Shown here: piece by piece, positions 13,424 through 63,615 of the stretch
How positions within the stretch are numbered: the first letter of the stretch is position 1
How the letters are laid out: every line of letters starts with the position of its first letter
Assembly: GCA_001600635.1 (NCBI GenBank)
Contig: BCKL01000008.1
Coordinates: 777,770-841,769, forward strand
Length of the DNA: 64,000 nt
Direction of reading: 5' to 3'
Origin: Leucosporidium creatinivorum
Lineage: Eukaryota > Basidiomycota > Microbotryomycetes > Leucosporidiales > Leucosporidiaceae
Notes under the pieces: model-generated
The model's input: only the letters and a program-made list of their open reading frames with translations
The model's database searches: none
What the model was told of the DNA's origin: nothing
Made by a program: the position numbers and the translations under genes

Positions 13424-15480
13424 AGGCATGCCTTGGGTCTGGAAGAAGCAGGAATCTTCGTCATCGGCGCTCCTCATCCTCGGCCACTGGGTGGACTCGG
13501 AGGCGCTCACCATCACCCTCCCTGCCAACAAGAAGCAGGAGTTCGTCACCGCCGTCTCCTCCTTCCTCTCCCGTCGCGACAGGCCGCCTGTCATCGACTG
13601 GCAGCGGATCGCTGGCTACGCGCAATGGGCTTGCTACACCCTCCCCTTTGCCAAGTTTGCCCTCCAACCTCTCTACGACAAAATGGCAGGCAAGTCGAAG
13701 CGCAACGCTGGCATCCCCATCAACGTCAAGGTCCGTCGCTCGCTTAGCTGGTTCGTCGCTGAGCTCCTCTCCTCCCCTCCTCTCTCGCTCCTCGACCCTG
13801 CCCTCGACGAGTGGTCCCCTTCCGACGCCGACATCGAGATCCACACCGACGCTTGCGGCTCGAGCAATACCTTCGACCTCCCTGGCCTCGGCTTCGTTGT
13901 CCTCCCAACTCGGCGCTCCTCCTCCTCTCCTCCTTCCGCAGCGCTCCGCTTCTACCATCGCGCGCCGGCTGCGCTAGGCAACATCCAGATCATTGAAGGC
14001 CTTGCCGTTGCTTCTGCCATCGCCTGGATCCTTAAAGCTCGCCCGGCAACTCGCAGGATTCTCATCCGCACCGACTCGGCACCCGTCGTCTACGGCTTCG
14101 ATGCCGGCTCAGGCTCGGCGGCAATGAAGGCGCTCGTCTGGTCAACCTACCTCCAGCTCCAGTCTCATCGGATCCACCTTTGTGTTTGTCACATCGCTGG
14201 AGTCAAGAACATCATCGCCGACGCCCTCTCCCGTTGCCATCCTCTCGTCCTCGCCGATGAGTACTCCTCTCTCTCTTGGTTCTCTCCCCCGGCCTGGGCG
14301 TTTGGGAGAGCTCTCCAATGAGTACTCGTTGGCCTGCTGAGAAGCAAGGAGTGACCTTCGCCTTGCCACTAACTCGCCCCTTCTTCCCCGCACCTCCCAA
14401 GGCCCCTCCTCTCTCCCTCTCCCGCCTTCAGGACCTTGCCGTCCACCTCACCAACCATGCCATTGAGCCTTCGACTCCTCGAGGCGTTTCTTACGCCTTC
14501 AAGCACTGGGAGGCCTTTGTCCGCACCTACAAGCTCTCGGCGACCCCCTCGGCTGACTCACTCGTCCTCTTCATCGCCTACCTCTCCTGCCAACTCCACT
14601 CTATTGACAAGGTCCTCTCCGCGCTCGCCTTCCACTTCAAGCCCATCATGCCCGGCTGGGAGAAGGTCCGCTCGAACCCTCGTGTCCTCCTNGCGCTTCG
14701 GGGCTCGCTCAAGCTCACCGCCGTCCCCATCAAGCGCTCCCCACCTCTCCTCCTTTCACATCTCGTCGCGTTTGCTTCCTCTACCCTCGCGTCGTCTCCT
14801 CCCTCCCACGACAGCATCCTCGCCCTCGCCATCGCCGTCATCGGATTCGGCGCACTTCTTCGCCTCGGTGAGATTGTCGAGCCTTCGCACTCTGGCGACC
14901 GAGACCCACGGAAGTACATCAAGCGCTCCTTGGCTCGCCTCGTGGGGCTCAAGGAGTTCCACTTCCACCTTCCCTACCAGAAGGCGGATCGCTCCTGGGG
15001 CGGCTCAGACGTGGTCATCGTCGCTGAGAACTCTCCGCCGGCCTTCAACCTCCTCGGGGTTGTCGCCCTCTACCTTCGCTCTTGCGACAGGTTGCATCCC
15101 TCCAACCCTTATCTTTTTATCCGCGCCGACGGCGCCCTCCCGCCTCGCAGCTGGTTTCTCGACCGGCTTCCCCTTCATGCTCCTCTCGTCTCGGGCCACG
15201 GCTTCGAGCGGGAGGGGACACCTACCTTGCCTCCATTCGCACGTCATCATCCTTCATCAAGCGCATGGGACGCTGGACGTCGGACTCTGCATGGCAAGAC
15301 TATCTCCGAGATCAGCCCGCCCTCGCCGCCACCCTTCACCGCCTTCACCTCTCGGAGCGCCGGCGCTCCTCCTCAGCAACGGATCGATTCCCTCGCTACT
15401 ACGCCCAAACACCTCCTTCGACTTCCACCTCTCCATCGTCTTCGGATTGGGTCGGAAGCAGGCGGGGCGGGTAGAGGAGA
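13424..15480 (+). mobile_element. Tyrosine-recombinase retroelement fossil (DIRS/Ngaro type)
   Basis: The left part (13428-14321) carries the end of an RT (HWVDSEALTITLPANKK) and an RNase H with IEIHTDACGSS, an IIEGLAVASAI helix, IRTDSAPVVYG and KNIIADALSRC. The right part (from about 14400) resembles a tyrosine recombinase (IGFGALLRLGEIV; a GRW-type motif lies further on in another frame). RT-RNase H followed by a tyrosine recombinase is the DIRS/Ngaro layout. The element is incomplete and broken, with a few breaks. It abuts the LINE-B tail on its left. Its right limit is not clear. Confidence 0.65.
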
Positions 15481-16200
15481 TTGGGGTGCAGAGTTGGAGT
15501 GGTTGATGAGGGGATTTGGAGCCGAGGAGGAGGAGGAGGAGGGAATGGGAAGGGAGGGAGGAGAGACGGGCTGGGAGAGCCAAGGAGGGAGGGGAGTGAG
15601 GAGGGTGGTGTGTAGGAAGGAGGGTAGGAGGATCATGGGAGAGATGAGTTGGAGGAGTGGGAGTGACTTCAAGCAGCGGAGGTGGACGAGGGAGGAGGTC
15701 AGGTCTGGAGGGGCGGGGGACTTGGGCGGGCGGGAGCGCAGACAGAGGGACCATCCTCACCACATCACTTTACCCCCGCGCTTTTACTTATACACATTTC
15801 ACGCTCTCTTTTGTGCACCGCTTCTTAGTGTTATTTTTGGTAGACTACATGGGCCTTAGCCGCCTGAAGGTCGAGGAAACAAGATACATTCATTCATTCA
15901 GTCTTCTCTCCTCACTCGTCCTCCTCGATACCCACATACCTTTGTTCTTCGCATCTCTCGCACCTCGTTCTCCTCGCAACCCTCGCATCACTCGCATCCT
16001 CCTCGCAACACTCATCGGCCTCACTTCGCCGCTGGCGGCTCGTTCGTCTCCCTCCATTTCGATCTTCCATCACCACTCTTCCTTCTTTGACATACACCTT
16101 TGAAATTTCCTTCCAGTACAGCTCATTGAAATGTACAGCAGGCCGCCCAATTCAGCTACATCTCCCGCCTCGCGTCGTGAACGGCTTCAACGAGATTGGA
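15481..16200. other. Spacer between retroelement fossils
   Basis: No gene is supported. The left half is purine-rich (GGAGGAGGA runs at 15520-15720). The right half has imperfect CTCGCA and CATTCATT repeats (15888-16010). It may include non-coding termini of the tyrosine-recombinase element, but I found no repeat that proves this. Confidence 0.4.
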
Positions 16201-16490
16201 GTGAGGAGTTGGGCAGAGGGAGGAGGGACTTGGCGCGTTTGAGCCCGAGGCCGAGGCAGAGAGGTGATTTTTGGTCAGAGGTCAAGTCTTGATGATGACG
16301 ATGAGTAGCTTCTCGATGGTCTCTTGTAGACACCCAGGTCACCCACCACACTATTACAGTATCTGCACCCTTCCAGGCCTTAGCCACCCCCTCCTCCTCC
16401 TCCTCTCCGCTTTGTCTACTCATATAGGTGGTCTCTATGGGCGAAAGCTTGACATAGACTGAAACACGATAAACTAAACTAAACTAAACT
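16201..16490 (+). mobile_element. LINE-B family 3' end, second copy
   Basis: This block matches 13133-13423 along its whole length at roughly 95% and ends in the same TAAAC repeats. Since the first copy is the 3' untranslated region of LINE-B, this one is best read as a severely 5'-truncated insertion of the same family. It abuts Copia-1 integrase sequence at 16491. The sequence left of 16201 does not continue the Copia element, so a plain insertion with target duplication is not visible. Confidence 0.65.
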
Positions 16491-18588
16491 CGGTCCTCAG
16501 ATTTTTGAGCTTCTTTCCGGCCGCTCGCTCGGTTGCCTCGACGGAGCGCTTGAACGCGGCGAAGGCGTTGCTCTTCTTCTTGAGGAGCTCGACGTGCAGG
16601 AGGCGTGAGTGGTCGTCGACGAAGGTGATGGCGCAGCGAGCTTGACCGTGCAAGGGCTTGTTGAAGTCGAGGAGGTCGGAGTGAACGAGGGCTAGAAGCT
16701 CACTCGCTGTCTTCTTGTTTGCGGGGAAGGATAACTGTGTAGCTTTTGCTTTAACACAGGCATCGCAGTTCGTTACCGCTTCGAGGCTATCAGAAGTATC
16801 ATTGAGCTTCAGGCCGCGAACGAATCCTGAGCTCTCAAGCCTCTTCAAGGATGAAGTTGGTCGGTGGCACGTGCGGAGGTGCATCATCAGCGCGTCCGTC
16901 TTCGTAGACGTCCGGCCAACAAGCGCAAACGAGGTAGACTCACTAAGGGGGACGAGGTCGAGGACGATGAGGCCGGCGCGGATGACTCCCTTGGTGATGA
17001 TTCCGCGGTTGGGCTTCTCGATGATGGCTCCCGTCTTGGTGATCTTGATCTCAACGCCAAAGGTCTCGGTGAGGACGGCGGTCGAGATGAGGGTGTAGGC
17101 GAGCGACTTGACGAAGAAGACGGTGCCGAGCGTGACGATCTTGCCATCGGCGGTGCGAAGGTCGAGGGTTCCGACCTTGGTAGCATGCGCGCCGGGGATG
17201 ATGCCGTTGATCTCCATGGGCTTGATGTCCCTAATGTTGCGGAGGATGGATGAGTCGTCGGTGAAGCAGACCGAGGCTCCACAGTCAAGGATGATCGCTC
17301 CGTCGATCTTCTTGACTCCGGCTCCGACTCCGACGAGGGCGCCGGCTCCGTGCGTGTAGCCGAAGTTGCCGAAGTCGGCAATGTGCGCCGATCCTCCGTC
17401 GTTGTCAGAGGAGGAAGTCGAAGCGGCCGAGTTGGACTTGAGCTTGGTGATGTTGGCGCTGGCGCCCTCCTTCTCCTTGGCCTTCTTCTTTGCCTCGTAC
17501 CTGGCCTTCCTAGCGACGGCGAGCTCGAGCTGCTTCTTCTCCTTGTTGGGGTGCTTGCAGTCTTCGAGCCAGTGGATCTGCTTGCAGGCGGGGCACGGGC
17601 CGGGAGGTGGGCCGCGGTCGGACTTGCCCGAGCGCGACTTGGACTTGTTGGCAATGAGGGCCGAGGAGGATCCGCCGTCGTCGCGTTTGCTGGTTTTGAT
17701 GACCGCCTCCCTGATCGACGAGAAGAGGTCCGCGAGCGCGGGGAAGGTGATGACGTTGTTGGCGACGGTCGACTTGGTGGCAAGGAAGATCTCGGTCGTG
17801 TTGGCGAGCGAAGGGGGGAGACCATGCATGGCGAGGATGAAGACGAGGTTGTCGAGGGTGAGTCCCTTTGTCTTGGCGAGCTCGAAGGTGGACTTGAACT
17901 TGCGGGTGAAGGTGTCAACGTCCTCAACGCTCGGCGACTCGCCGAGGTCGATCTTGAGGAGCTTGGTTGTCACCACTTCGAGCGAGGAGGCCGAGGGAGG
18001 GTTGTAGGCAAGGTTGAGGGCGTCCCAGATCTGCTTGACCGTGTTGGCCGCCTCGGGGATGACCGTCTCGACTCCTTCGGCGAGGGAGCTCGTGATGAAC
18101 GTGCAGAGGTGCTCCTGGCGCATGTTCCAGATCTTGCGGTCGGCGTCCTCCTCGTTGGTGCCTGGGCGAGCGTCGCTGATGAAGAGGTTGGCGAGCGCGG
18201 GGCCGGTGATCGACTTGATTTTTCGCGCCCAAGGCATCCAGTTGGTCGGTCCCTTGAGCTGCTGGCTCTCAGGGAGAGGGTTGTAGGAGGGTGGGCGGTA
18301 GGTGATGACTGTTTGGTCGGGCATGATGTGCTGCTGCTGCTGTAGGCGAGCGCGACAAGCTGAGTGGCAAGGAAGAGGGCGAGACGCGCGTGGAAGCTCG
18401 TGGAATGTGCCTNCTGTTCCTGCCTTTTGGAGGGCTCCTCGAGTCGGGGACTTGTCGAGGGCTGGAGAGACGGTGTAGGAGAGTAGGAGCGAGCTTGTAC
18501 TGTAGCGTCCTAGGTGCTCCTGAGCGAGTACTAGTCTTGACCAATTAGGAAGCGTCTGATAGGCTCAGCGCGTTTGGGCTCAATAACC
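16491..18588 (-). mobile_element. Copia-1: leader, gag, protease and integrase start
   Basis: An incomplete Ty1/copia-family fossil. Directly after the LTR the minus strand reads GGTTATTGAGCCC (18588-18576), close to the complement of the anticodon region of initiator tRNA-Met, the internal primer type known from Drosophila copia. The gag starts at 18324 (MPDQTVITYRPPSYNPL). A CPACKQIHWLEDCKH knuckle follows, then an aspartic protease region, the GAG-pre-integrase H/C motifs and the start of the integrase core (FVDDHSRLLHVELLKKK). No further pol is present, and a LINE-B 3' end adjoins it. It looks comparatively young. Confidence 0.75.
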
Positions 18589-18980
18589 TATAGAGGTACA
18601 GAGGACTGGCGATGTACTCGATCAGACAGAGTCTGAAATGCATCAAAGACTAGCTACACAAACTCATCTGGCGATGTACTCGATCAGACAGAGTCTGAAG
18701 AGAAAGCCAAGTGAGCGCCCACGCCGGGGACTTAAATCCGCCTAAGTCCGATAGGGGCTCCCATCCCAAAACTCCTCCTCNCTGTCCCAAAGTTGGAGTA
18801 GAGACTGATACATGCTCTGATGAGCTACTTGAGCGAGGAGAGAGCGTGTAGAGCGAAAGGTGAGGAGGATGAGAGGTTGCTGCGCTCGGACTCGAATGGT
18901 GGTCGAAAGGAAGGGAGAGAGAGGGCGATGCTGAAGCTGATGATGAGGTGGAAGTGGTGACCTAAGCATCCTGCTCAACA
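18589..18980 (-). mobile_element. Copia LTR shared by Copia-1 and Copia-2
   Basis: The LTR runs from TGTTGAGCAGG (18980) to CCTCTATA (18589) on the minus strand. A run of seven Gs, fitting a polypurine tract, lies just upstream of its start, after the RNase H end of Copia-2. The tRNA-Met-like primer site of Copia-1 lies just downstream of its end. It thus serves as 3' LTR for one element and 5' LTR for the other. A 27-base block is duplicated inside (18603-18629 and 18664-18690), as in the solo LTR at 12252. One N (18781) lies within. Confidence 0.75.
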
Positions 18981-21580
18981 CCCCCCCGTAGTCCCACTGG
19001 GGGACTAGCGAGGCCAAGCGCTGCCCGAAGCTTCTCGAACGTGGGTCGAGGCAGCGCCTTGGTGAGGATGTCCGTGATCTCCTCCTTCGTGGGGATGTAC
19101 TTGATCTCCACAATACCCTCCTTGACGGCGTTGCAAACCCAGATGTGGCGGGACTGGACGTGCTTGAGTTGCAAAGGGTGACGAGGGTCGAGCAAGACGG
19201 CGATGGCTCCCGTGTTGTCTCTGAGTAGGGTGACGGGGCCGTCTGAGCCGTAGCTCATCTCCTCCTTCAGGATCTTGATCGGCTGCACTTGAGTAGCGCT
19301 GTGGTTGAGGGCGAGGAGTTCTGCTTCCGTCGATGAGAGAGGGGGCGCCTTCTGCTGCTTGCTGGACCATGCCACCGCTCCTCCCTGGTTGAGGAAGACG
19401 TAGCCCATTGTTGAGCACCTCGTGTGGACGTCATTGTTGTAAGCTGTGTCTGTGTAGCCGATGAGCTTCTTGACCTTGACCGAATGGTACGTATTGTGGA
19501 TGTGGATCTCGTCCTTGTTAACCTCGATGGGCTCGATGTCCTTGCGTAGTCTGCTGTAGTGGCCGACAATGGTGTCCGACTCCTGCCCTGCTTGGTAGAC
19601 AATGCCGAGGTTGGGGTAGGTGCGGAAATAGCGAACGACCTGAAGTGCAGCTGCAAAGTGCTCGTCTTGAGGGCCTCTTGCGAAGCAGGCCAGATAGTTG
19701 ACGGCAAAGGCGGTCTCGGAAGGAGTAGCACCAGGGGCGTAGAGGAGGGAACCAACAATGGAGAGGTAGGCCTTGCGCTTCTCGGGAGGGCAGGACTTGT
19801 CTGGCTCGGGGAGCTGTAGACCTGGCTGCACCGGGATGTAGACGGCGCGGCTCGGCTCGTTGCTTGGCGGCGATGGCGAAGAAGGTGCGAAGCGAGGGAG
19901 CCCGAAGAGTCGGCGCAAATGTGCCGTGAAAGTCGATCCCTGCTGTTGCTTCGTTGCCAATCGCAACAATGCGAGCCTTGTACTTGTAGGGGATGCCGTT
20001 CTTGTTGTACTTGACGGTGTAGACAAACTGTGAGTAGATGATCTTGGCGTTGGAAGGAGCTGCGAGCGGTCGACGAGGACAAAGACCTTGTAGTCGTCCT
20101 TCAGCGAGCGGATCTCCTCCTTCTTGGCTGCCCTCCACTTGTCGGCAAGAGGCGAGCTCATGCCCTCCTTGCGCGTCTTGGGTTCGGCGGTAGGGAGGGT
20201 GAACTCGTTGATAGACTCCTCGGCGAAGGCGGTGTTGCACTCGGCGATGAAGGCGGCAAAGGAGTTGTCAATCTGCTTGTGCGCTGGGTCCGGCTCGAGG
20301 AAGAGAGGATCTGGAGAGGATGAAGGCTCTCGCAAGCCCCCCCGTGCTTCGTCTGCCTCGTCGTTGGTCACGCTGTGTTGGAGACATATTCGGCGAAGCG
20401 GACGGTCTTCTTTCCGACGGACTTAGGTGGGGAAGGCTGACAATTTGGCTGCTCCCAGGCGACGTCTTTGTTCTTGTCGACAAAGGGTGTGGTGCTCTTG
20501 CCGCTGTCAGATCCTCCATCGGCCGAGTCGTCGATCATGTGAGGAGCGGTCAGTGGCATGCTTATCGGCTCGCTCTGAATGTGGTGAGAAGGACCTACGG
20601 ACGGCAGTGAGGGTCAAAAGATTCCCATCACCGCAAACATTGTCAAGCATCATTGGGAAGCGGTGCTCCCGGAAGTAGACGTTGCGAGCTCGGATGATGC
20701 CCTTGCTTGGAGGGAGAGAGGGGTTCCATCCCTTGTAGTGCGACTCGGTGAGGCCGTAGCCGACAAAGATGAGGGAGACGACATTCTTGTTGAGCTTGTG
20801 ACGCAGTTCCTTGGGGATGACGGCGAACATCTCGGATCCGAAGGCGCGAAGGTGGGCGATCGAGATGGGCTTGCCGGTCCAGCACCAAAGTGGAATGTCT
20901 CCGTTGAGCGAGGCATGTCCAAGTTGGTTGTAGGTGTAGACGGCATGCATGAGGGCTTCTCCCCACCACTTGACATTGAGTCCGCTCTGGAAGAGGCTCG
21001 CCTTGGTCATCTCGACGATGGTGCAGTTGACCCTCTCGGTGCAACCGTTTGAGCGAGGCGTGTAAGGGACAGTGAGCTTGTGGATGATGCTGCGGTCCTC
21101 AAGGTACTTTTCAAACCCATTGCAAGTGTACTCTCCGTCATTGTTGGTCCTAAGGCGCTTGAGCTTCTTTCCAGTCTTCACGCGCTTGGTCGCCTCTGTC
21201 AAGGACCGTGCTACACCCATCCATAATGTAACTGTCTTCTTAGACCGCTGGCCCAAAACGCTGGGAACAAGTCAGCACTTGTTCTCTTGACGGACTATTT
21301 GAACCCCAGAAGTAAAGGTGGAGGCTAGGCCTTCACAGCCTCGAGGAAGTGTTGGGAGGCTGCGAGGGTGTGGCGCTTGTTCTTGAGGAGCTTGAAGTGA
21401 GGAAGGCATGGGTGATTGTTGACACAGGTCATGGCACAGCCAGCGTTGCCGTGAAACGACTTGAGGAAGTTATAGTGTAGAAGCAGTGTGAGGCGGGCCG
21501 GGGCTCGCCTGTGTTGCAAAAGTGCCCTCTGTGTAGCTCCTGTCAGAGGACCAATGTTGAGATTTACACCGACTCTTGCT
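18981..21580 (-). mobile_element. Copia-2: integrase, RT and RNase H part
   Basis: A broken, incomplete Ty1/copia fossil. On the minus strand it runs from about 21580 with integrase sequence (CVNNHPCLPHFKLLKNK, later VPYTPRSNGCTERVN and FVGYGLTESHYKGWN). RT sequence follows (MSSPLADKWRAAKKEEIRSL and onwards), then a complete-looking RNase H domain (YTDTAYNNDVHTRCSTMGYV, LSSTEAELLAL, SRHIWVCNAVKEG). It ends where the shared LTR begins. There are several breaks, roughly three to five. It is related to Copia-1 but not identical in the overlapping integrase part, so the two are separate copies. Confidence 0.7.
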
Positions 21581-50185: not shown

Positions 50186-51270
50186 TCAGGCCCACCTCGC
50201 CCTTAACTGCTCCTGCGTAACGCCGCTCCTCGCTTGCTGCCTAGACGAGAGCGAGGGGAGGTGTTGGTGACGAAGGGAGTGGGCGGTATAGATGGTCAGG
50301 CCTTGCGTGACATCTGTCGTGATACCCTTCTTGGTGAGAACCTGCCGCGTGAGGAATGTTAGCGTTAGATTCGGATGCCGACTCGACGACGAGCGGAGTG
50401 GTCGCCCAACCACACTCTGTGAGGCTTTACTTTGATGACATCGTTGGCCATCACAGCAAGCTGGGACCAAAATAGACTGGTCAGCATCTCACGCTTGAGA
50501 CTGATCTGTCTAATACCCAGCTTTTGCCCGGCCTAGCAGACCGCCGAGCGCTGCTACGACACACCGTGATCAGTTGTCGCTTGTGCAGGTTTGTCAACCC
50601 GTGTTGATACGCGAGCCACACGGCAGCACACTTGCGCAGAGAATCGTGATCGAAGTTGTGCGACTTGCGGGTCGATACGAAAGTGAGTCGACGGGCAAAG
50701 TATCGGATCCCCTCGTGGATGGCGTCCACTGAGGTCCGGGGTCAGCTTGAGGCGCAAGAAAAAGTTGAGCAAGTTGGACTCACAGCAATTCAGCTGGATC
50801 CTTGTATGGTGCTTCATCCAATACGATTCCTCACGCCAGCTCGAGTTCTCAACCAAGGTTGCGAAGGTAAAATCGTGTTGGCGGGCGCGCCAGACGTTGA
50901 CTGACATGTCACCCTCCAGACTACGAAGGATCAGAGCGTCCAGCGCAGCCGCCCCCATGCCTGGGCTTGGATGCTGTAGCTCCTTTGCCCGCGACACGTA
51001 CTCCAAGATCGTTACGTCGGTGCCGAGCGACGCGGCGGCGAGTGCCTCCTCCTGGTCGGGGTCGAAGTGCCCGGAGGTGACGAATAACGGGGTGGGAGTA
51101 CTACTGCGAGTACTCTGCTTGCTCCACAGTCGAGCGAACGCCTGATGATTGGTCAAGAGCTCGAGCCGCTGCTCTGCGCCGAGGAGCGCAATCGGAGTAG
51201 CATTAGGGAGCAAGAGCGGGATGGTCCACTGGTGTTCCTTGCTGATGGCGTCTTGGAGGAAGGCCTCCAT
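50186..51270 (-). CDS. Paralog A of an unrecognised fungal family
   Basis: Four exons: 51270-50784, 50728-50565, a 30-nt exon 50460-50431, and 50341-50186. The protein has roughly 285 residues, starts MEAFLQDAISKEHQWTIPLL and ends LSSRQQARSGVTQEQLRARW-A. I recognise no domain. It has no signal peptide or membrane segment and is probably mostly helical. Family features shared with B and C are AI..HxWTLxxLLP near the start, an LxCxxAI...ARRL segment, CAxVWLA, LxKxQ, the micro-exon LAVMANDVIK, and the C-terminal SLxxRHxPSLxSR...RARWA. This copy looks intact. Just upstream lies a copied last exon of NOC4. The 13-mer GGCACTGAGTCGA before its start also occurs before paralog C. Function unknown. 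Confidence 0.75.
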
Positions 51271-52644
51271 GATTTGGTGTGATGAGAAGAGCAGGAAAGC
51301 GGCAGCGCGCTCGACTCAGTGCCGCGGACTTTGAGACCTTGCTTCGTTCGGCGTCCAATCTCGGCGTTGCTTGGATCCATACTTAGGCATGCAGTGCTCC
51401 ATTGCCTATCTGTAATTAGCACCTCAAACCGCTGCCTGCTTTCACCTCGCCTCCACTCTCTCCTCTCCGCTTCCCTCCTCCGCACCGCGCAGCCCGCGCC
51501 TTTCCCTCCCCGTCGAACGCTCCACCACTCCCTCACTAGCCACCTCCTACAAGATACTCTCCTTTTCCTTCGCCAGTACCTTCTCAACGACCTTCTCCAC
51601 CTGGATCTTGGCGTTCAGAGAGTGGAGGAAAAGGAAGAATGAGTCGCCGATGGGTTGGCGCTTGGGCACTGGGGCTATGGCGGGAGCGGTGAGGAAGGTG
51701 CAGGAGGTTCCGGAGAGGAACATCTGTCGAGTTTGAGCTATCACTCGCTCGTTCTGTGCGCTGTAGCGAGCCCTGCAGAGGGAGTAGCGAAAATCAGCAT
51801 CTCGGTTCGGCGCTCGCTGAGATCTTTCCGAACCCGACAGCAGCCTTTCCTAACTGCAGACAGCGCTCAGACGAGAGCAAATTACAACTAGACTCACTTG
51901 ACTTGCCCAGATCTGCCGAGCAGCCTACAAAACCCTCAAACGCTCGTAGTCAGGCAGGACAGCTCCTCGGCTCCGACAGCATTCCTTCGGTCGAGCGCTT
52001 CGGGGCCTTCGCCGTTGTGTCAAGTGTCCAGTTGCAGCTCACTGGCGGTAGAACTGGCGCACGGGCCGAGGCGGAGCGTTTGGGGGTGCAGCGCAGGAGC
52101 GGATCTCCTACAAGGGCGATTCCCGAGCATAAGCTGGCCCTTAATGGTCCAGTGTACTTTCTTCGAATGGAGGAAAGGCGGTGGAGGTCAAGCGACGACC
52201 TTGAGAGGTGCGAGATGCTGAGGTGACGACGTGCTGAGGGAGAGCTTGCTTGAGCGAACAGTGCAGCGAGCTCCAGCAGGGCTGTACTCACTGTGCAGAT
52301 CACATCCCTCCTCGATGGAGCAGCAGTCATTCCTCGGTCGAGTCGACAGAAGACGAAGTGAGCGGGAGGAGAGAGAAAGACGCCAGGCGATCCGAGTGCT
52401 ACTTGAGGTCGAGTGCAGAGGGATCGAGGGAGCAGGTGAGTGTTGTAATATCTCTGGGAGACTCCCACCCAGCTGCCGTAGCTGGCTGTAGACGATCTCC
52501 GCTTCTTTAAGCCTGCGGAGCCATCGCCGAGCTCATTCGCTTGCTCAGCTTCGCGGAAGATGCGTTGCTCTAGTCTTCTTGCTACACTCATCCTCTTCTG
52601 ACTGTCTAACAAGACCTAGCAATACTTAGGTACCTCCCTCCATC
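51271..52644. other. Region between paralogs A and B
   Basis: The left part holds the paralog A upstream sequence and the NOC4 tail copy (51547-51723). The rest (51750-52612) has an open minus-strand frame of 220 codons starting MSVARRLEQRIFREAEQ, with a competing frame containing EAEIVYSQLRQLGGSLPEIL. Either could be a small intron-bearing gene, but I recognise neither and cannot place splice sites with confidence. Confidence 0.35.
51547..51723 (-). pseudogene. Duplicated last-exon fragment of NOC4
   Basis: The frame 51723-51550 (after an intact CAG acceptor) encodes a protein very like the true NOC4 last exon: APVPKRQPIGDSFF, LHSLNA..QVEKVVEKVL are shared almost residue for residue. It ends earlier, at a TAG (51547-51549). 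No earlier NOC4 exon is present upstream. It sits 276 bases before the start of paralog A, matching the 268 bases between the real NOC4 stop and paralog C. It is a by-product of the duplication that made the paralog and is presumably not functional. Confidence 0.8.
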
Positions 52645-53704
52645 TCACGCCCACCTCGCCCTCAATTCCCCCTCCGAAACGCCGCTCCTCTCCTGCTGCC
52701 TCGAAGTGAGCGAGGGGACGTGTCGATGGCCAAGGGATTGCGAGGAAACAATGGGAGGGCCATGAGAGTGAGAAGCATCCTCTTTCAGTCCGTTTTTGGT
52801 AAGAAACTAGCAAGCGAGGGTGGGTGGTCGGTCAGCCCAAGATTGGGCGCAGAGGCTCGAGGACGCAGCTTGGTCGCAGGTTGAACTCGGTGAAGACTTA
52901 CTTTGTCGACCTCGTTGGTGATGAGCGCAAGCTATAGATGGGGCGGATGTGGGAACACAGAAGACCAAGGTCAGCGCGGCGTTCACAGCAAATCAAAGCC
53001 AGCTCTATCATCACCGAGATTTCAGCACTGACCTTGAGAACCTGCCATTTAGTCAGATTGCCGAGTCCTCGCACGTTATGAGCAAGCCAGACGGCAGCGC
53101 ATTCCTCCATCGTCTTCTCGTCGTGCTTGAGCCCGAGATCCGTCGGCGCCGTTGCGAGTCGCCGAGCGACGGTTCTGACCTTGTCGAAGATGGTCATCTC
53201 TGGGACAAGGCAGAGACGTCAGCAGTGCATTGAGTTGGTTCAAACGGAGTACTCACTGCAGTCAAGCCGCTCGACTACCCTGCCCGAGTTCGTGTGCGTC
53301 GAGTCATTCAGCAGCGCCGAAAGGGGGATGCGCTCCGAGGTCAACTTGCCCTCCCACATCTTCTGCACAGCGGTGTCCACCCTATGCAAAGTGCCCTCAT
53401 CAACTGCATCGATGTGGGTTGGGTCGCCGGCGATGAGAAGCTCTCCTGCAGCCCAGATGTGCAGCCCGAGACCTAACCGAGCTCCATTCTCGGGGTCGAC
53501 CTGCGAGTGGAACTCCTCCGTCATGCTGGGAATGGCCAGTTCGAAGTATTTGTCCCTCCATAGTTTGGAAAACTTGTCGAGATCTTTCAGCACGTCGATA
53601 CGGTGCTGTCGCTTGTCGTACGGGGGTGTAGGCCGATCGTTCGGGACGAGCTTCTGTAGCGTCCAGCGGTGCTTCCGTATAGCGGCCTCGATGGCTGCTT
53701 CCAT
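52645..53704 (-). CDS. Paralog B of the unrecognised family
   Basis: Four exons: 53704-53257, 53199-53033, a 30-nt exon 52931-52902, and 52806-52645. The protein starts MEAAIEAAIRKHRWTLQKLV and has roughly 265 residues. Intron positions and phases equal those of A: after the first base of the codon behind the conserved Cys, then phase 0 on both sides of the micro-exon LALITNEVDK. The second exon carries VRTVARRLATAP and CAAVWLAHNVRGLGNLTKWQ. The end, SLGHRHVPSLTSRQQERSGV then RARWA, is the best conserved part. It looks intact. It stands in tandem with A and just downstream of CLF1 on the same strand. Function unknown. Confidence 0.75.
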
Positions 53705-53899
53705 GATTGGAGCGAAGTGTAGAGTGTGAAGAAGAGAGCGAAGCGGAAAGGGCGGGAGTCAAGGCGGGGAGCAGCACAGCACCGCGGATTTGCAGCACTG
53801 CTCGGCGTTTCACCGCTTTGGCGCTCGCTTCGGCCGGTCATCGCGTCCAGAATCTCCGATTTGATACAGCATATTCAATTTTCCACACCGCACACCTCT

Positions 53900-55763
53900 T
53901 TACTCCTCGTCGCCCTCTGCTTCCTCCTCATCGCTCTCCTCCTCCTCGGACGACTCCTCAGCCGGCGCAGGAGCAGCGAGCGCAGCCTTCTTCTTCCAGT
54001 CGGCGGCGAGCTGGAGGAATTTGAGCGAGGCAGGGTTGGCGCCGGCCGTCTCGTCGTCGGCGAAGAGCATGTCGTAGTCTATTTGTGTGAAGCGAGGGAG
54101 ACGAGTCAGTCAACGAACAAAGGGAGAGACTGAGCGAGTGAGCCAGGGAACAGAGGAAGAGCAACGTACACTCCTCCATCATGGAAGCGTCGCCGTCGAC
54201 CTTGCGCATCTTCTTGACGACGCGAGGCAGCATGGCCTCGACCTTGGCCAGAGTGGTGGCATCTCCCTCGGCCGACTCGAGCGCCTTCCAGGCTTCGAGG
54301 AGAACGACGCGCTGTGGTGGGAAGGCAAAGTGCGAAGGGTCAGCTCTCGCGCTCGAGGGAGTGAGGGAAAACCGGCAACGACTCACCTCCTCCTTGAGAC
54401 CCTTCTTCCTGAGGTCGGCGTATCCCCTCTCGAACACCTTCCTCGCCTTCTCTAACCCATCCTCCTTGGCCTTCTGCGCCGCCTCCTCATCGACCTCGAC
54501 CGGCTCCTTCTCGACCTTCTCCGCCTCCTGATCCTCCTCCTCCTCCTCTTCCTCCTCTCCACCACCCCTAATCGCCTCCTCCTCGGCCCTCCCCGCATTA
54601 GCCTCAAACTGAGCATACGAGACCCAGACCTTAACATGACTCGTCCTCCTCAACAACCTCTCGTACAGCTCCCTGACCCGACTGTACTCCTCCTCCTCAA
54701 ACTCGAAATCGATCCACGACTTCCAGATCAACTCGGGCATGTCCATCGAGGGTTGGTTGACTGCGAGCTCGTAGATTGCGCGCGCGCGGTCCGTGTCTTG
54801 CAGGATGGATTCGAGCTCGGTGAACTTGATCCAGGCGGAAGCGTTCGAGGCGTCGTACTGTTGGAGTGGAGATGGAGAGGTCAGCGCCAAGCGAAAGAGG
54901 AGAGCGAGATGCGGGAGTGGAGAACACTCACCTCCAACCACTTTTGGTACAACTGACGACAACGATCAAACTCGCGAAGGTTGAGCTCGAGGTCAATGTA
55001 CTTCTTGAAGAGCTGTTGGTGTCGGCGATCAAAATCTCGGTCAGCTCTGCTCCCGCCTCGCTCCTCGCCCGTCCCAGCAAGGACAACTCACCTTCTCCTT
55101 CGGCGCCATCCCAATAGCCGTTCCCAACACTTTCCTCGCCGCCTCCAAATCGAGTTGGCGGACCTCGAACTCGGCAAACTGGATCCAGACTTTGGCAAAG
55201 GTGAAGCGCTTGTGAGGGACGAGCTTGAGGCAGGCTTTGTAGATCTCGCGCGCGCGGGTGAGGTCCTGCAGTGGTTGGGCGAGGTTGGGTCAATGGAGAA
55301 AGAAGAGGAGGGAAGAAGGGTCAGCGAGCGCTCGGCGAAGGAAGAAAGAGGGAGAGGGCCCAAAAACGCACCTTCGTTTCCATCTCCTCAAACAAGGCAT
55401 AATTCAACCACGTAAAGATATACCTCCTCCAATGCCTCTTCTCCTCACTCGGCGGCACCTGCGCCACACTTCTCTCATACACCTCCCTCACCCTCCCCAG
55501 TGCCTCCTTGCCCTGCTGCTCTCCAACTTCTTTCGCACTCCTATACGCATCCTCCTCCAACCGGGCGTAATCGAACCATACGTCGTAGTTGCGTGACTCG
55601 TGCGTCAGCTCCTCCTCGTATTGGATCCGACGCTTGCCCAGGACGGTCGATTCGATGCCCGAGCGATCGCCGAATTGCTTTTCGAAATTGGTGTAGGAGG
55701 CGTAGAGTTGGGTGGAGCGGGAACGGGGGAGACGGTCGAGGGCGAACTGTGTTGGCGTGTCAA

Positions 55764-55853
<90 letters not shown>

Positions 55854-57166
55854 GAAGGGAGGAGAAGGAGCGGAGCGAGGAGAAGGGTCAGGCGCCGAGT
55901 CGGAGGAAGGCGAGCAGAGGGAGGGAGGGAGGGAGGAGTAAAAGACCACAAGACTCACCTTGTAGATGACGCGAGCGCGGTCGTACTCCTTGTGACGGAC
56001 CTCCATCTTGGCGAAGCTCGAGTAGAGGGATTGGGACTTGTCGATCCCCTCCTCCTCCTGTCCATAGAATTCGAAGCCCATGGTGAAGATCTCGCGCGCG
56101 CGGTCTGTGGTGTCATCAAGAGCGTCAGCGGTCTTTCTCCGCGAGACAGAGCCGAGTAGGAAAGGACCACACTCACCGACGTTCCCCCTCTCCTCCTCAA
56201 ACTTGGCCCACTTGACAAACATCTTGGGCTCAGGATGGCAATTGACCAACCTCTCATACACCTTGGACGCCCTATCCATCTCATTATACCTCACCTCCAT
56301 CTTGATATAAGCGGACCAAGCCTTCTCATCCGGCTCCCACGCCATCCACCTCTCAAACACCTGCCGCGCGCCCGCGACGTTGCCGAGGAGCTCCTCGAGG
56401 TAAACGTATTTGTACCAAATTTGGTCGATGCGGGGGAGGAGAGTGACGGCGCGGTCGAAGAGGTTGCGGGCGTGCGAGATGTTGCGCGCTTTGAGTTCCT
56501 GTGGTTGGCAGCGAGGGAGTGTTAGCTGGATTGGGGAGAAGGGTGGGAGAAGAGGATAGGACAGAACCATCTCGGTGTAGGAGAGCCAGAGCTTCATGTT
56601 GCTCGGATCGACGTCCATCGCACGCTCAAACACGGAGCGCGAGCTGTTGATTGTCGGGGCGAGCGGAGTCAGTTGGGCTGCTCCGAGAGAGCGAGGGAGA
56701 AGTGTACATACCGAGGGAACTCGCCCTGTGCTGCTTCCCAGTTGGCATACTTGGTCCAGGCGGTGATCTATTAAAGTGGGAGAGAGCGGCGAGTTTAGCG
56801 AGGTGAGGGGTCGAGAGGTGACTGGGAGAGCTGAGCTGGTCGGGCTACTGAGTTGAAGCTGTAGCAGAGGACGTGACGTACGTTACTCCTCGTCCTCCTA
56901 ATGACTTCCTCAAACTCTTGGCGTTTGCGACCGCGGTACTCGTGTAGTTCTTCAAAGTCCTCTACGTTCTGACGGGGCTTGGGGGGCGCCTTGTCCTGGA
57001 AGTCGGCTGCTTCTCGTAACAGTTGCTCGGCGGTGATCTAAATCAGGGGCAGAGTAGGAGTGAGTGAGTATGAGGTACAGAAGTGGAAGAGAAGACTACT
57101 GACCTGGATGGTAGCGGGAGCGCGATTCTTGACCCTGCCAGCTCCTCCTCCATCGCGTCCCGACAT
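53900..57166 (-). CDS. CLF1: Clf1/Crooked neck, HAT-repeat splicing factor
   Basis: A scaffold of the Prp19-associated (NTC) complex that joins the spliceosome. The protein starts [20 protein letters not shown] and continues [20 protein letters not shown], typical for Clf1. A long series of HAT repeats follows ([60 protein letters not shown] and more). The tail is acidic, rich in Glu, and ends EEEAEGDEE. It has about ten introns; one (55747-55958) contains an 89-base C run on the coding strand between branch point and acceptor. The length, about 750 residues, is close to other fungal Clf1 proteins. It is divergent from NOC4, 183 bases between starts. Confidence 0.92.
55764..55852. repeat. 89-base poly-G / poly-C homopolymer in CLF1 intron
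   Basis: Eighty-nine consecutive Gs on the plus strand. On the CLF1 coding strand it is poly-C, placed after the branch-point sequence GCCTGACCC and before TTGACACGCCAACACAG, i.e. where the polypyrimidine tract belongs. The length given by the assembly may not be exact. Confidence 0.85.
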
Positions 57167-57349
57167 GTTGAGCAGGGAGAGCTGTGTAGAGCGGTAGTGC
57201 AGAGAGTGTGTCTGTAGCCTGGTAGAACGAGAGACGAGTCGAGAGTCCAGAGACGAGCCGAGTGGTGGGCAAGAGGCCAACCTTGGCTTGCGAGACGAGT
57301 TGCTCTTCTCCCTTCGTCGCATTGCTCGTTCTACCGTCTACCGTCCAAC
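57167..57349. promoter_or_regulatory. Divergent upstream region, CLF1 / NOC4
   Basis: The 183 bases between the start codons serve a splicing factor and a ribosome-assembly factor. Joint regulation with growth is plausible, but no motif is evident. Confidence 0.45.
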
Positions 57350-60135
57350 ATGGCCCCTTTGTCACTTGCTGGGACTAAAAAGGGGAGATCAACCTCTTCA
57401 ATCAAACCAGTTACTGCTTCCAACACTACCAAACAACCGGACGCTATCCTACACCAAATTCACCAACTCACTTCGCAACTCCCTCCCGCCGCTCCAGCAA
57501 ACTCGTCTTTAAACCCTTTGGCCGACTTGGTCTCCTTGTTCACTTCTTTACCTCTTTCTCTTTCTGTACCTTCCTCGGCTTCCCCTTCAGCAGCCACCAA
57601 CAACCGCCAACAAGTCCACACCGCCCTCCACTCGCTCGCTGCAATCTTCCAACTCTTAATCAACCAAGGCAGGCTACATGGCACTCTCAAGGCCAAGAAA
57701 CAAAAGTTGGCCGGTGGTCATCAGGTACAGGACGAGCTGGACTCGGTAACTGCAGTCAAGCAATGGCTCAACGACCGCTACCACCAATTCCTCGCAAAAG
57801 CCGCACTCGTCGTCGGCGACCACTGGGATCTCAACGTTAGGGTCAGTCTTGATATCCGCTCTGCTGTCCATTAGCTCTGAACTACCCCAACCTAACCCCT
57901 CCTGCTCTCCCTCCTTCTCCACTACACTACAGATCTCCGCCCTCAACTGCCTCATGTCGCTCCTCCGCGCCGAATCCACCTTCCTCACCTCCCTCCACCA
58001 CTCGCGGCAAGCCCAATTCCCTTCCTCCACTTTCGCGCATATCGTTCGTGCCATTCTCGTTCCCAAGCCGGAGGGAGCGGAATTGAGGGAAGAGACGAGA
58101 GAGGAATGGCTCAAGTGGTTCAACCGGGATGATGATGTTCGGTATCACTTCTTGAAGGAGGCTGCGTATGTCCCCTTCTTCTTCTCCTCTTGCTCCTTCT
58201 TCTCCTCCCCTCGCTGACCCCGATGAACACCAACAGCACCCTCCTCACCTCCTACACCCCCTCGGCCTCGGCTTCAGCGCCCCCCTCCAAATCCTCCAAC
58301 AAGTCCACCACCCCCCTCCCTACCACTCCCTCGGTCCCCTCCCACCTCTCCACCAACCTCATCACCCTCCTCGAACTCCTCACCACCATGCCGACCTCCC
58401 CTCACGAGCTCAACTCCTTCTGGACCTCCACTCCCCTCGTTCTCAAGGCTCCCAAACTCGGGGGTGGCAAGAAGCGCAAAGCCCCCAGCTCGAACGGGCC
58501 AGTAGACGACGGCTCGACAGGCGTGTTCGACTCGTCCTCCTCCGACGAATCCGAGGCCGAGCCCGCTCCAAAGCTGTCCTCCTCGCAAACCAAGAAGCTC
58601 CTTCCCCCGCTTCTCTCCCTCTCGGCGCACAAGAAGGTCTTCCAGGATTGTTGGATGGCGTTGCTTAGTCTCCCGGGCGGGCTGGAGGAAGCAGAGGCCA
58701 AGAGGGTGTTGGTGATTTTGCATCGCCAGGTCCTGCCTCATTTGACCGAGCCGAGGAGGTTGATGGATTGGTTGGTGGATTGCGCGGATGGAGGTGAGTC
58801 GTCTCTAGTCTCGTGTTTTCATTTTTTTTGCTCGGCGCATGAAAGCTGCTGCGACGGGGTGGGTGGAGGGCCAGTCTCGCGGGGACGCGCGAAGGGAAGA
58901 GCCGAACCGTGGCGGAGCGGACCGAGATGCTGACTTCCCTCCCTCGTACCCCTCGCTCGCTACACAGGAGGAACGATCGGCATCCTCGCACTCAACGGCC
59001 TCTTCACCCTCATGCAGAAGCACAACCTGTACGCGTCTCTCCCTGTCCCTCTCCTGCCTCGCCCAGCCGAAGCTGACCTCTCCTTCCCTCCCTCCCTCCC
59101 TCCTCAACCGAACAGCGAGTTCCCCGACTTCTTCGCCAAGCTCTACTCCCTCCTCGACCGCGACGTTCTGCACGTGAGGTACCGACCGAGATTCTTCCGT
59201 CTGTTGGACATCTTCATGGGCTCGAGGTGAGTTTCCATCGTCCTCCTCCTCCCCTCACTCCCCCCCCCCACCTAGTCTTGGCTTCTCTTCTCCCCATCTC
59301 TCCCTCTTAAGCAAAACGGATCTCTGACGCCTCCTCTCATCAATCACACAGCCATCTCCCCTCCCACCTCGTCGCCTCCTTCATCAAGCGCCTCGCGCGT
59401 CTCTCCCTCTCGGCCCCCCCAGCAGGAATCATCACCATCATCCCCTTCATCTACAACATGCTCAAGCGTCACCCGGGATGTATGGTCATGATCCACAAGC
59501 CAAAGGGACGGTATGGAGAGGAGGAGGAGGAGACTGATGTGAGGGGAGCAGAGAATGGTGAGCCGCCTTTCCTTTCCCTCCTTCCTCCTTGGCACTGGGC
59601 TGACCAAGGTGCTGGACGACGGGCAGACCCCTTCCTTCCCCACGAGTTGGACCCCCTCAAAACCAACGCCATCTCCTCCTCGCTGTGGGAGCTCAAGGCG
59701 CTGCAATCCCACTACCTCGCCTCCGTCTCGGGCTTGGCCAAGATCTTTGGAGAGGTGATGAACAAGCAGAACTACGCGATGGAGGATTTCTTGGATCATA
59801 GCTATGCTACGGTGTGTTCTTCTGCTCTGCTCTGCTCCTCCTTCTCCTTCCTCGTCGCCGAGTACCCGCTGATCCCCTCCTCCCCCCCTCCTCAACAACA
59901 GATGTTCACCTCCGAAACCTCTCGCATACTCCGCACCGCCCCCGCCCTCGCCCCCGTCCCCAAGCGGCAACCCATCGGCGACTCGTTCTTCCCCTCGCTC
60001 CACTCCCTGAACGCCGAGACCCAGGTGGAGAAGGTCGTGGAGAAGGTGCTGACGGAGGAAGGGGTGTTGGAGGAGGTTGTGAGTGAGAGGGTCGTGGAAC
60101 CGGTGGATGGGGTGGCGAGGGGGTGGGCTTTTTGA
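57350..60135 (+). CDS. NOC4: Noc4/Utp19, 40S ribosome-assembly factor
   Basis: Noc4 binds Nop14 in the small-subunit processome in the nucleolus. The protein starts MAPLSLAGTKKGRSTSSIKP. The helical N-terminal half includes CLMSLLRAESTFLTSLHHS. The CBF/NOC domain lies behind: GTIGILALNGLFTLMQKHNL, EFPDFFAKLYSLLDRDVLHV, RYRPRFFRLLDIFMGSSHLP, then IITIIPFIYNMLKRHPGCMV and WELKALQSHYLASVSGLAKI. The C-terminal exon (from about 59903) reads APVPKRQPIGDSFFPSLHSL and is the piece copied next to paralog A. Stop TGA at 60133-60135. About seven introns are present. Length is roughly 650 residues, slightly longer than yeast Noc4 because of Ser/Pro-rich insertions near residue 280. Confidence 0.9.
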
Positions 60136-60403
60136 GTGGGGAGGAGAGCGAAGGATGAACAGAGATTGGGGAGGCAAGACAGAGGGATGGGATGGGAGGG
60201 AGAGGTGTAGAGGATGATATATAAGATCTGGTGCGTTTCTATACACTGCTCAGAAAGAATTGAGCTCGGCGTTCGGAGAAAGCGCGTGACAGCGCTCCGC
60301 CGAGAGTGAGGAGTCCTCGGCTCCACGGCACTGAGTCGACCGAGGCTGCCGGCTCGGTCTTCTCTCCCTTTTTCTTGCCTCCATCATTCACACCTCGTCA
60401 ACG

Positions 60404-61774
60404 ATGAAGGACGCCATCCAACCCGCCATCAGCCATCACGGATGGACTCTCGAGTCTCTCCTCCCGAGAAATCGCCCAGCTCTCGCCACCGACCGCAAGC
60501 AAGTCCTCGAGGCCATCTACGACATCTGCGAGCTCTGGGACGAAAACGACCAATTCCTTAAGCTCCCCGAGCCCTCGGCCGAACACCTAGCGTCCTTTGA
60601 CGCTCATGCTGCCATGGCCATGACGAAGGAGGCGAGCGACCAGGCAGCTCTAGCGATACAGAAGACGGGAGGTCATCGTGATGGGAGAGCGCATGAGGAG
60701 GATGACAAGATTGAGAAGCTGTGGAGTAGAGTGGGAGGGCTTTCATGTTTGGAATGCCCTTCTCGGCGATGCTGGAGGATTCGACCGAGGTGGACAGGAG
60801 CGGACATCGCGTTCGTCTCAAGTGCTGTGAGTCAGGTTCTGTAGCTTCTGGCACCGGTCCTCAATCTTCTTCGCCTGATTGCAGTGACAGCCATCGTCAA
60901 CAAGGTGCACCACGTCGCTGCTCGGCTCGCCCAAGCCCACGACCTCCGACTCGACCCCAACTCGCCGATGATGAGGAAGTGCGCCATCGTTTGGCTGGCT
61001 CGCGGTTTGAACATGCAAGGTTTCTCCCATTTGAGCAAGTGGCAGATCCTACAGGTGAGTTTCGAGTGCTCGGCTAACCTCGGCCGAAGCAAGGGGTGGC
61101 CGACCCCAGCTGTAATGCTACATGGACGTCGAGTCACATGCTGTAGCACTCTAGAAGTACACCCGACCAAGCGAGACCCGCTCTACTCGCCTACAGCAGC
61201 CTGCAGCTCGAGAAGAGGCCGAGGGCCCCGCACGGCCTCTTCTCGCGAGTCGACTTGAGCGGCGTCTGCCGGCCGCTGTAGGTCATCAAACAAGTCGACG
61301 CTTGGATAGGTACATGTTGACGCATCACGCTACCCTTCGCCCAAGTCTTGTACCACGATATGCAGTACAAGCTGAGAAGAGGTCGCAGGGGAGCTTAGCT
61401 GAACTTTTGGGCCGAGGTCGGCCACCCCTTGGCCGAAGCCTCGTCGCGCCCACTGGCAGCAAGAGGTCAGTCTCGAGAGGGTGGCTAACATGCTCGTCAC
61501 TCTCTTTACTCACAACTTCAAGCTGGCTATTACCGCCAAGGAGGTCGATAATGTTAGGTCTCACGTCATGCCTTCCGTGCTACACCTCAGGCTCGGCGAT
61601 CGCTTCCCGCGCTAACCATTCGGGCCTGCACAGCATCTTCACGAGCATGGAGTTACGGATAGCCCATCCGTAGCTTTGCATTCCCTTGGGCACCGACATG
61701 TACCTTCCCTCACGTCGAGGATGGAGAGGAGGAACCGCGTCTCGGAGTGGCAGTTCAGGGCGGCGTGGGCTTAG
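60404..61774 (+). CDS. Paralog C of the unrecognised family (frame break in exon 1)
   Basis: Exons 60404-60826, 60885-61054, the 30-nt 61523-61552 and 61634-61774 follow the same pattern as A and B. The start MKDAIQPAISHHGWTLESLL, the LKCLTAIVNKVHHVAARLAQ junction, CAIVWLARGLNMQGFSHLSK, the micro-exon LAITAKEVDN and the end SLGHRHVPSLTSR...FRAAWA identify it. In exon 1 the reading frame changes by one base between KLWSRVGGL (about 60735) and GMPFSAMLEDSTEVD (about 60751), so it is either a pseudogene or a base-calling error. The third intron position holds a 340-bp MITE. It lies 268 bases downstream of NOC4. Function unknown. Confidence 0.7.
61091..61430. mobile_element. 340-bp MITE, Mutator-type, in paralog C intron
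   Basis: Terminal inverted repeats AAGGGGTGGCCGACC (61091-61105) and its exact reverse complement (61416-61430) are flanked by a perfect 9-bp direct repeat GGCCGAAGC (61082-61090 and 61431-61439). A 9-bp target duplication points to the Mutator/MULE superfamily. There is no coding capacity. Inside is a 13-bp hairpin, CGAGAAGAGGCCG / CGGCCTCTTCTCG, with a loop of about 11 bases (near 61208-61245). The perfect ends and duplication suggest a recent insertion. The host intron keeps a GGCTAAC branch site downstream of it, so splicing may be unaffected. Confidence 0.85.
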
Positions 61775-62153
61775 AGTAGAGCTGGGGAGCAGAGGAGAAG
61801 GTAATTCATTGTGAAGGTACTCCAGACGCGCACAGATTCGAGAAGCAAGCTCCGAAGCCCATCACTCGGCAGAACTGACGCGATGAAAAAGAACGCCGAG
61901 CGAGTTCGGCGATGAGCAAAAGGGGGCCATGGCGATACAAAGTGGCTTTGACCGATGTGAGGGTCTCTCTATGGGGTGGAAAGATAGAACAACGCTTGTT
62001 GCGACGCTCTACGCTTGACATGAGGGGGCTTGCGACCTCGACTCAAGCCACCTTCAAAGCCTCGCTCGCCTCTTGCTCTTCTGCCTCTCGCTCGCTCGTC
62101 ACTCGTTTCACCTCGAACCGCTCGGAAGTAGACCCAGCTGGATACATATCACC
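61775..62153. other. Upstream region of the F-box gene
   Basis: The 379 bases lie between paralog C and the F-box gene on the same strand. In-frame ATGs upstream of 62154 (for example 61912) give poorly protein-like sequence, so I take this as leader and promoter. Nothing else is visible. Confidence 0.45.
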
Positions 62154-63615
62154 ATGCAAGACCTTCAGTGAGCATTTCCCGCTGCTGTATCTCAGTAGGC
62201 GGGCGTTGACTGACGTCGTTCTCCTCCCTTGCTCCAGGAGCACGCCCACTTCGCGATCCGCTCAGCGGGACTCGCCGCTCTTTCGACTACCCGACGAGCT
62301 GCTGTACGACATCGCAAAGCGTCTACTTTGCGACTGGGATCCACGGGACCGCGAGGGCAGCCTTCCGCAGGTCAACTTGTGCCCAGTTCGTCTCGTCTGC
62401 CGATACCTCGCCGCTCTCCTCCGTCCTTTGGCGTGGTGGCACTTTCACTTCGCGTGGGACGACTACGTAACAGCCTCTTCTCTTGAAGCTCTGCAGCAAG
62501 ACGTCACACTACGCCCTTACGTCCGTTCAGCCGACTTCTATTTCCCCAATGCGCTGCTCGGCTTTGGCATCCTCAACCTTCGCTCACTCGTCAACCTCAC
62601 CTCGCTACACATCACCGCTGTCGGGGAGGACAACTTCCCGACCTATGTTCCTCCTTCCATCACCGACACGCTCAGCCTTCTCCCTCACCTCAGCTACCTC
62701 GCCCTCCTCAACTTCAACGGCATTGCGAGCGAGACATTCTCGTTCAAGGACCACACGCCGGCGCTGAGGCATCTAGAGTACGAGTTCTATAACGACGGAA
62801 CTTTCCTATGTGGTCCCGAGCTACTGGAGACCATCACCACCAACACAAACGAGCAGATCATCAACGTCCTGCCGACTCTCCGCAACCTCAACCTCAAAAG
62901 GAGCCTGAACGGCCTCGAGAAGCTCACGGCAAAGCTTCAAGAAGCGTCTGTAAGCCTGGCGCACTGTGCGACCTGCTGGAGTAGGCCTCAGCAGTGCTCA
63001 TTCGCTACGTCTTCCGCAGGGCTCGGCGCCGACCTACCCTCTACATCGACTCCGCCTCGAGCTCTCCCTCCATCATAAGAAACTTGCTCCAGCTTTCCTA
63101 CAAGCTCTCGGTACTACTACCAAGCTCAACACTCTGGAGCTCCACTTGAGCTGGCTCGACTTCCCTTACGCCGAGGCGCTCGCCGAATGCCGCCTCTTCT
63201 CGCTCAAGAAGCTCATGCTGCGCTGTGACAGCGAGAAGCAGAAATGGTTAGGAGTGTGTATTCTCACAGGAATCGTTCTCTGCAAGCGTGCACTAACAGT
63301 CCCTTCGAGCAACAGACGCCCGACCCCAACCCGCCTTTCGGCGAGCCTCATCTCAGCGCCTACCCCCTCCTCAAGCAACTCCTCTACTCCTTCCCCGAGA
63401 TACTCACTCTAAATCTGTACGGCTTCTGGACCGACCAAGCAAAGAGCATCAAGATGCTGCCCGAGGTGCGCACCTTCGCCGACGACCTGTTGGCGGGGTC
63501 GAAGGTGGAGGAGCTAGTTTTGGTTGAGGAGCAGTGGGGGAATAGCTGCACCAATGTCTTGAGGGTGAATCAGACCCGAGATGGCTGGACCGAGGAGCTC
63601 TTCTGGCCGATTTGA
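62154..63615 (+). CDS. F-box protein with LRR-like C terminus
   Basis: A likely substrate adaptor of an SCF ubiquitin ligase. After a 14-nt first coding exon (MQDLQ) and intron 62168-62237, the protein reads STPTSRSAQRDSPLFRLPDE, where the F-box core LFRLPDELLYDIAKRLL begins, followed by CPVRLVCRYLAALLRPLAW. The rest holds leucine-rich repeats of irregular spacing (LRSLVNLTSLHITAV, LPHLSYLALLNFNG, LPTLRNLNLKRSLNGL, TTKLNTLELHLSWLDF). It ends EELFWPI. Two more introns lie near 62950-63019 and 63251-63314. Length is roughly 430 residues. Such F-box/LRR genes form large, fast-changing families in basidiomycetes; the target is unknown. Confidence 0.75.

Follow-up and report, generated by a model that had tools for sequence, protein, structure and literature searches.

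Small, lineage-restricted paralog families that match no Pfam domain are a general kind of fungal gene set rather than a named family, and such uncharacterised sets are many in fungal genomes. Taken by themselves, the three genes described here, paralogs A, B and C, are one such set. They resemble ordinary families of this kind in being small, divergent, locally duplicated, intron-containing and without a domain match, and their unusual feature is that a copy of the tail of a NOC4-like gene lies beside A. Retroposed gene copies offer another comparison: the locus likewise holds several copies of one gene but, unlike retroposed copies, A, B and C each keep three introns. Among the titles and openings of abstracts listed in a literature search (PMC4469406 included) we met no such family, and we do not claim that it is absent from print. 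All coordinates below refer to the 64-kb stretch of DNA that was analysed (the window).

Three paralogs with a common exon plan

Paralog A (50186-51270, minus strand; 4 exons, 278 aa; introns 50783-50729, 50564-50461 and 50430-50342) and paralog B (52645-53704, minus strand; 4 exons, 268 aa; introns 53256-53200, 53032-52932 and 52901-52807) both splice into open frames without interruption. Paralog C (60404-61774, plus strand; introns 60827-60884, 61055-61522 and 61553-61633) has four exons on the same plan, with a frame change in exon 1. Together the three genes span about 11.6 kb, with both strands represented. The extents given for them in a preliminary description of this DNA are correct, since the ATGs (A 51270, minus strand; B 53704, minus strand; C 60404, plus strand) and the final stop bases (50186, 52645 and 61774, respectively) agree.

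The gene models are predictions whose splice sites were picked by eye from the sequence, and on these sites all three intron positions and phases are common to A, B and C. The phases are 1, 0 and 0 in A and in B. Relative to the shared blocks, the introns of C lie where those of A and B do, and reading the frames by eye gives local phases of 1, 0 and 0; the running phases computed for C are misleading because of the frame change in exon 1. The shared intron plan proposed earlier is thus borne out in A and B, and in C by local frame reading. All nine predicted introns have GT and AG ends, and in each a CTRAY motif resembling a branch point lies 5-38 nt from the 3' end (background ~2.9 per kb), the distance of 5 nt in C intron 1 being implausibly close.

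Intron 2 is 104 nt long in A and 101 nt in B but 468 nt in C, where the excess is due to an inserted element of 342 nt (61090-61431, strand unassigned) that has perfect 16-nt terminal inverted repeats (CAAGGGGTGGCCGACC) and GCCGAAG flanking both sides. A perfect 16-nt inverted pair appeared in none of 5000 mononucleotide shuffles of this intron. Subtracting the element and one copy of its flanking sequence from C intron 2 leaves 119 nt, near the lengths in A and B. Within the window, there was no further match to the terminal repeat with fewer than three mismatches, and self-comparison (E up to 1e-3) gave no second copy of the element.

The proposal of a three-copy family holds, as the similarity is well above shuffled controls in every pair (300 residue shuffles per pair): the alignment z-scores are 23.0 (AB), 16.6 (AC) and 25.9 (BC) for exons 2-4, and 7.9, 5.7 and 10.5, respectively, for exon 1, for which C was taken only as far as its frame break. 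The strongest part of the similarity lies after intron 1 (42-51% identity among the three), while A and B are 34% identical overall. Exons 2-4 of C are open and share 51% identity with B across 110 aligned codons, and tblastn between copies reached E values as low as 2e-15 (B against C). The start, middle and end blocks named in the preliminary description are indeed common to the copies, but they are looser than it had them: at the start, A has WTI in place of WTL and B has LVP in place of LLP; in the middle, C has AARL in place of ARRL; at the end, C has RAAWA in place of RARWA, and the SLGHRH of B and C is SLRHQH in A. No fourth copy was found when the family profiles were searched against 1895 six-frame segments (at least 15 residues) of the window, the best E value outside A, B and C being 0.34 (at 3675-3517).

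The count of three genes needs a qualification, for A and B splice intact whereas C, as it stands, is frame-changed. Its exon 1 shifts from frame 0 to frame 2 at about 60730-60755, ahead of a block matching B, and no combination of donor, branch point and acceptor that would make the change an intron was seen when the region was read by eye. From its sequence, C appears to be either damaged or misread. Because the sequence past the frame change still matches B in the other frame, any break would be recent, or else an error. That C is an intact gene and the frame change a sequencing or assembly error is a possibility that we hold at somewhat below even odds. The window does contain a gap of 875 bases and three isolated Ns, but at the frame change there is neither an N nor a homopolymer of at least 15 bases, and the inserted element is another disturbance of the C locus, though an insertion in an intron need not harm the gene.

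Divergence of the copies and the NOC4-like tail beside A

To estimate constraint we compared codon positions and substitution rates, with the reservation that all selection estimates come from three sequences and that dS is near saturation. In exons 2-4, the substitutions per codon at positions 1/2/3 are 0.40/0.22/0.51 (AB), 0.50/0.26/0.54 (AC) and 0.36/0.25/0.46 (BC), and dN/dS is 0.43, 0.39 and 0.36, respectively. The low dN/dS (0.36-0.43) and the least change at position 2 suggest purifying selection on the protein in this part, in support of the earlier claim of selection on particular blocks. In the last 37 codons, A and C differ by 0.43/0.27/0.41. In exon 1, the values are 0.55/0.51/0.64 (AB), 0.56/0.50/0.52 (AC) and 0.53/0.38/0.64 (BC), so that the codon positions are almost equal in AB and AC, while BC retains the position pattern; dN/dS there, near saturation, is 0.56 (AB), 0.67 (AC) and 0.33 (BC), with 192, 196 and 146 of 200 dS bootstraps usable. 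Exon 1 thus seems to be under weaker constraint than the sequence that follows intron 1, and the two halves do not separate cleanly. The A-C dS is 1.33 in exons 2-4 (bootstrap 0.84-2.58) and 1.25 in exon 1 (0.78-2.40); together with the divergence of the sequences, this supports the old, divergent paralogy that had been proposed.

Upstream of C lies a gene with a CBF/Mak21 domain, which we take to be NOC4: its reading frame 59311-60132 matches PF03914 (E 2.8e-30), and its last exon, as translated, occupies 59902-60135 (plus strand). A dead partial copy of this last exon lies upstream of A (51491-51727, minus strand; 77% identity over 238 nt, E 2.5e-46) and has an in-frame stop after 58 codons; it was absent from the preliminary description. 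The NOC4 sequence that precedes this exon (59000-59901) gave nothing better than E 0.043 in the flank of A, and its sole better match is one of 33 nt (E 2.9e-04), in the GA-rich stretch that ends the gene upstream of B. B itself adjoins the 3' end of that upstream gene, which has HAT repeats (Syf1/Crooked-neck type). A search with the NOC4 exon for stray fungal contigs among genome contigs gave 23 stretches, none of them confirmed.

The dS of the NOC4 tail pair is 0.41 (bootstrap 0.19-0.72; a sample of 52 codons, with codon bias in NOC4 as a caveat), compared with about 1.3 for the A-C split. By this measure the tail copy looks younger than the split, so that A probably arose without it. The most economical account is that A acquired the tail later, or that gene conversion kept it alike.

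The alternative that one inverted segmental duplication took in both the NOC4 tail and C and so gave rise to A is unlikely. The arrangement of the tail copy and A does agree with that of NOC4 and C in order and orientation, and a match of 30 columns links the upstream flanks of A and C, with a score reached by none of 500 dinucleotide shuffles. Against it, the dS of the tail pair is well below the A-C values of 1.33 and 1.25, and dN in exons 2-4 is 0.37 between C and B (bootstrap 0.28-0.49) and 0.52 between C and A (0.40-0.67), which places C closer to B, although the intervals overlap. A single duplication could still be reconciled with the dS conflict if codon usage in NOC4 is biased or if the tail later underwent gene conversion.

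A more far-reaching reading makes A, B and C an undescribed, fast-evolving family of one fungal lineage whose members undergo local recombination with the 3' ends of neighbouring housekeeping genes and thereby gain new upstream regions. Such a family would combine a conserved helical and basic C-terminal module with a diversifying N-terminal half, and A would have gained its NOC4 tail in this way; we consider this quite unlikely. The preliminary description also spoke of a family spreading among essential genes. Three neighbouring copies do exist, but the phrase is descriptive, and one of the copies is damaged or misread. Nothing was seen of a system beyond a small paralog family, and we would class the three genes as an ordinary orphan paralog family whose one curious feature is the copied NOC4 tail next to A.

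Origin of the family

Our preferred reading, to which we give a probability of roughly 0.55, is that of an ordinary birth-and-death paralog family, copied as DNA, with a probably soluble helical product whose C-terminal half is under selection. A, B and C would be old paralogs of one intron-containing protein gene that was duplicated at the DNA level, introns retained, within about 11.6 kb. The copies would then have diverged by birth and death, leaving A and B intact and C decaying, unless C reflects a sequencing error. The similarity of the copies and their introns in shared places (at predicted splice sites) establish homology, and from these we infer the copying at DNA level. Retroposed copies would be expected to have lost their introns; all three introns are present in all three copies, and retroposition is therefore disfavoured.

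An origin of A, B and C from a mobile element that moves the family about, either as its cargo or as its domesticated remnants, is highly unlikely. Three copies within about 11.6 kb on both strands, the inserted element inside C intron 2, and Copia-type matches at 16477-18564 in the window, each under its curated cut-off, would fit such an origin. However, the retained introns argue against retroposition, and A and B have no Pfam match to transposase, integrase or gag profiles. Nor do terminal repeats clearly frame any of the genes: when the 500 bases to the left and to the right of each gene were compared in inverted and direct orientation, the best local scores were reached by 23-433 of 500 dinucleotide shuffles, the direct comparison for C being the lowest of the six and marginal (23/500). 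Between genes, the A-C upstream match is the only strong one; the A-B upstream match is marginal (14/500 shuffles), and the other four pairs are not significant (235/500 for B-C upstream; 68, 364 and 72 of 500 for the 3' flank pairs). A flanking-repeat reading of AACGCCGA was likewise rejected, as its core CGCCGAGC was found 57 times across the window and the flank comparison, too, gave no clear pair.

Searches and the predicted product

The view that the family has no recognised domain is borne out in searches of Pfam, NCBIfam, PHROGs and the PDB. For A and B, the only Pfam match was Internalin_N (E 0.32; 11.4 bits against a cut-off of 24.1), NCBIfam gave no match, and the best PHROGs match had E 0.12 (unknown function); the three C-terminal halves matched Internalin_N (E 0.044) and IF2_N (E 0.11) in Pfam, in one member each, and the best PDB matches by sequence had E values of 0.97, 0.38 and 0.68. 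We take all of these matches as chance. Pattern scans for relatives gave 24 and 5 stretches in viral contigs (two scans) and 71 in prokaryotic genome contigs, none of them confirmed by tblastn, and absence from these contigs carries no information on fungi. Rfam (at gathering scores) and tRNA searches found nothing in the window. A reading of the tail as HxxRH, a tyrosine-recombinase-like motif, was dropped because the arginine is not conserved across the copies (A HSLRH, B QSLGH, C HSLGH).

Structure models were made of single exons with AlphaFold2. For exon 2 of B, from an alignment that included A and C, the prediction is a helical hairpin made of two long helices, after which a third begins; its mean pLDDT is 84.1 in the best model and only 66.6-79.6 in the remaining four, while the exon 1 model is unusable (mean pLDDT 37.7). 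Foldseek against the PDB returned 19 matches to the exon 2 model, the best with E 4.9, and thus no fold match. Neither A nor B has a hydrophobic stretch of transmembrane strength (maximum 19-residue Kyte-Doolittle means of 0.99 and 1.13, respectively). The conserved part after intron 1 contains CAxVWLA, and the C terminus is strongly basic (pI computed for the last 40 residues, 11.8 in A and 11.4 in B), this tail closing with RA(R/A)WA. From the exon 2 model, the lack of a transmembrane segment and the basic tail, we infer that the product is likely a soluble, intracellular helical protein, its solubility and its helicity outside exon 2 being extrapolated. A binding role of the C-terminal half is a guess from composition: the most constrained part, comprising the hairpin with CAxVWLA and the basic tail, might bind a partner protein or nucleic acid, and the variable N-terminal half might set specificity, which is also a guess.

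That the second half is a distant cyclin-fold or TFIIB-like repeat (PF00382 and its kin) is scarcely tenable: the helical hairpin of exon 2, with its small-residue-rich helix, is like such a repeat, and the pattern around CAAVWLA seems to us to resemble one, but A, B and C have no profile, sequence or fold match to it, there being no TFIIB or cyclin entry among the Pfam matches of the three C-terminal halves (E up to 10, although HMMER filters remove most matches above E of about 0.1), the two PDB sequence matches of the family profile, or the 19 Foldseek matches of the exon 2 model (E up to 10).

Our preferred reading remains that of an ordinary paralog family that probably arose by birth and death. 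If relatives exist in other fungi, the part after intron 1 would be a new conserved domain, and the locus would be a small natural case of duplicates diverging and decaying.

Sequence additions at the paralogs

The second intron of C, one of the three paralogs (A, B, C) that lack a recognised domain, contains an element of 342 nt (window positions 61090-61431) that is bounded by perfect terminal inverted repeats of 16 nt and flanked by a 7-nt duplication. Upstream of A, at 51491-51727, lies a dead copy of the last exon of NOC4, the NOC4-like gene just upstream of C; its counterpart is found at 59898-60129, and the copy starts approximately at the exon boundary. On the 3' side of C, a reading frame at 61879-63075 gave a weak F-box-like match (E 0.0098), which is under the cut-off.

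Recurrent words

The word CGCCGAGC was counted 57 times in the whole window, compared with ~5 occurrences expected from base composition. A second word, AACGCCGA, which was chosen post hoc, occurs 11 times in the whole window, and four of these occurrences fall in the flanks of A, B and C; these flanks together make up 2.2% of the window.

Assembly features and possible retroelement traces

The assembly gap consists of 875 N bases (7269-8143) and is the probable reason why G+C is low and open frames are numerous there; copies of 63 nt with 92% identity stand on both sides of it (7160-7222 and 8176-8238). Inside the region of the HAT-repeat (Crooked-neck-like) gene, a run of 89 G (55764-55852) is either an artefact introduced during assembly or a homopolymer of great length.

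A reading frame at 1537-2580 encodes an RNase H domain (E 2.1e-06) and is possibly part of a retroelement. Further along, we noticed inverted repeats of 393 nt (12251-12642 and 18589-18981; 97%), direct repeats (13129-13426 and 16197-16493; 95%) and a minus-strand reading frame (16477-18564) for which three Copia-type matches were obtained, all under their respective curated cut-offs. This region, from 12251 to 18981, may be an LTR retrotransposon that is nested or has undergone rearrangement.
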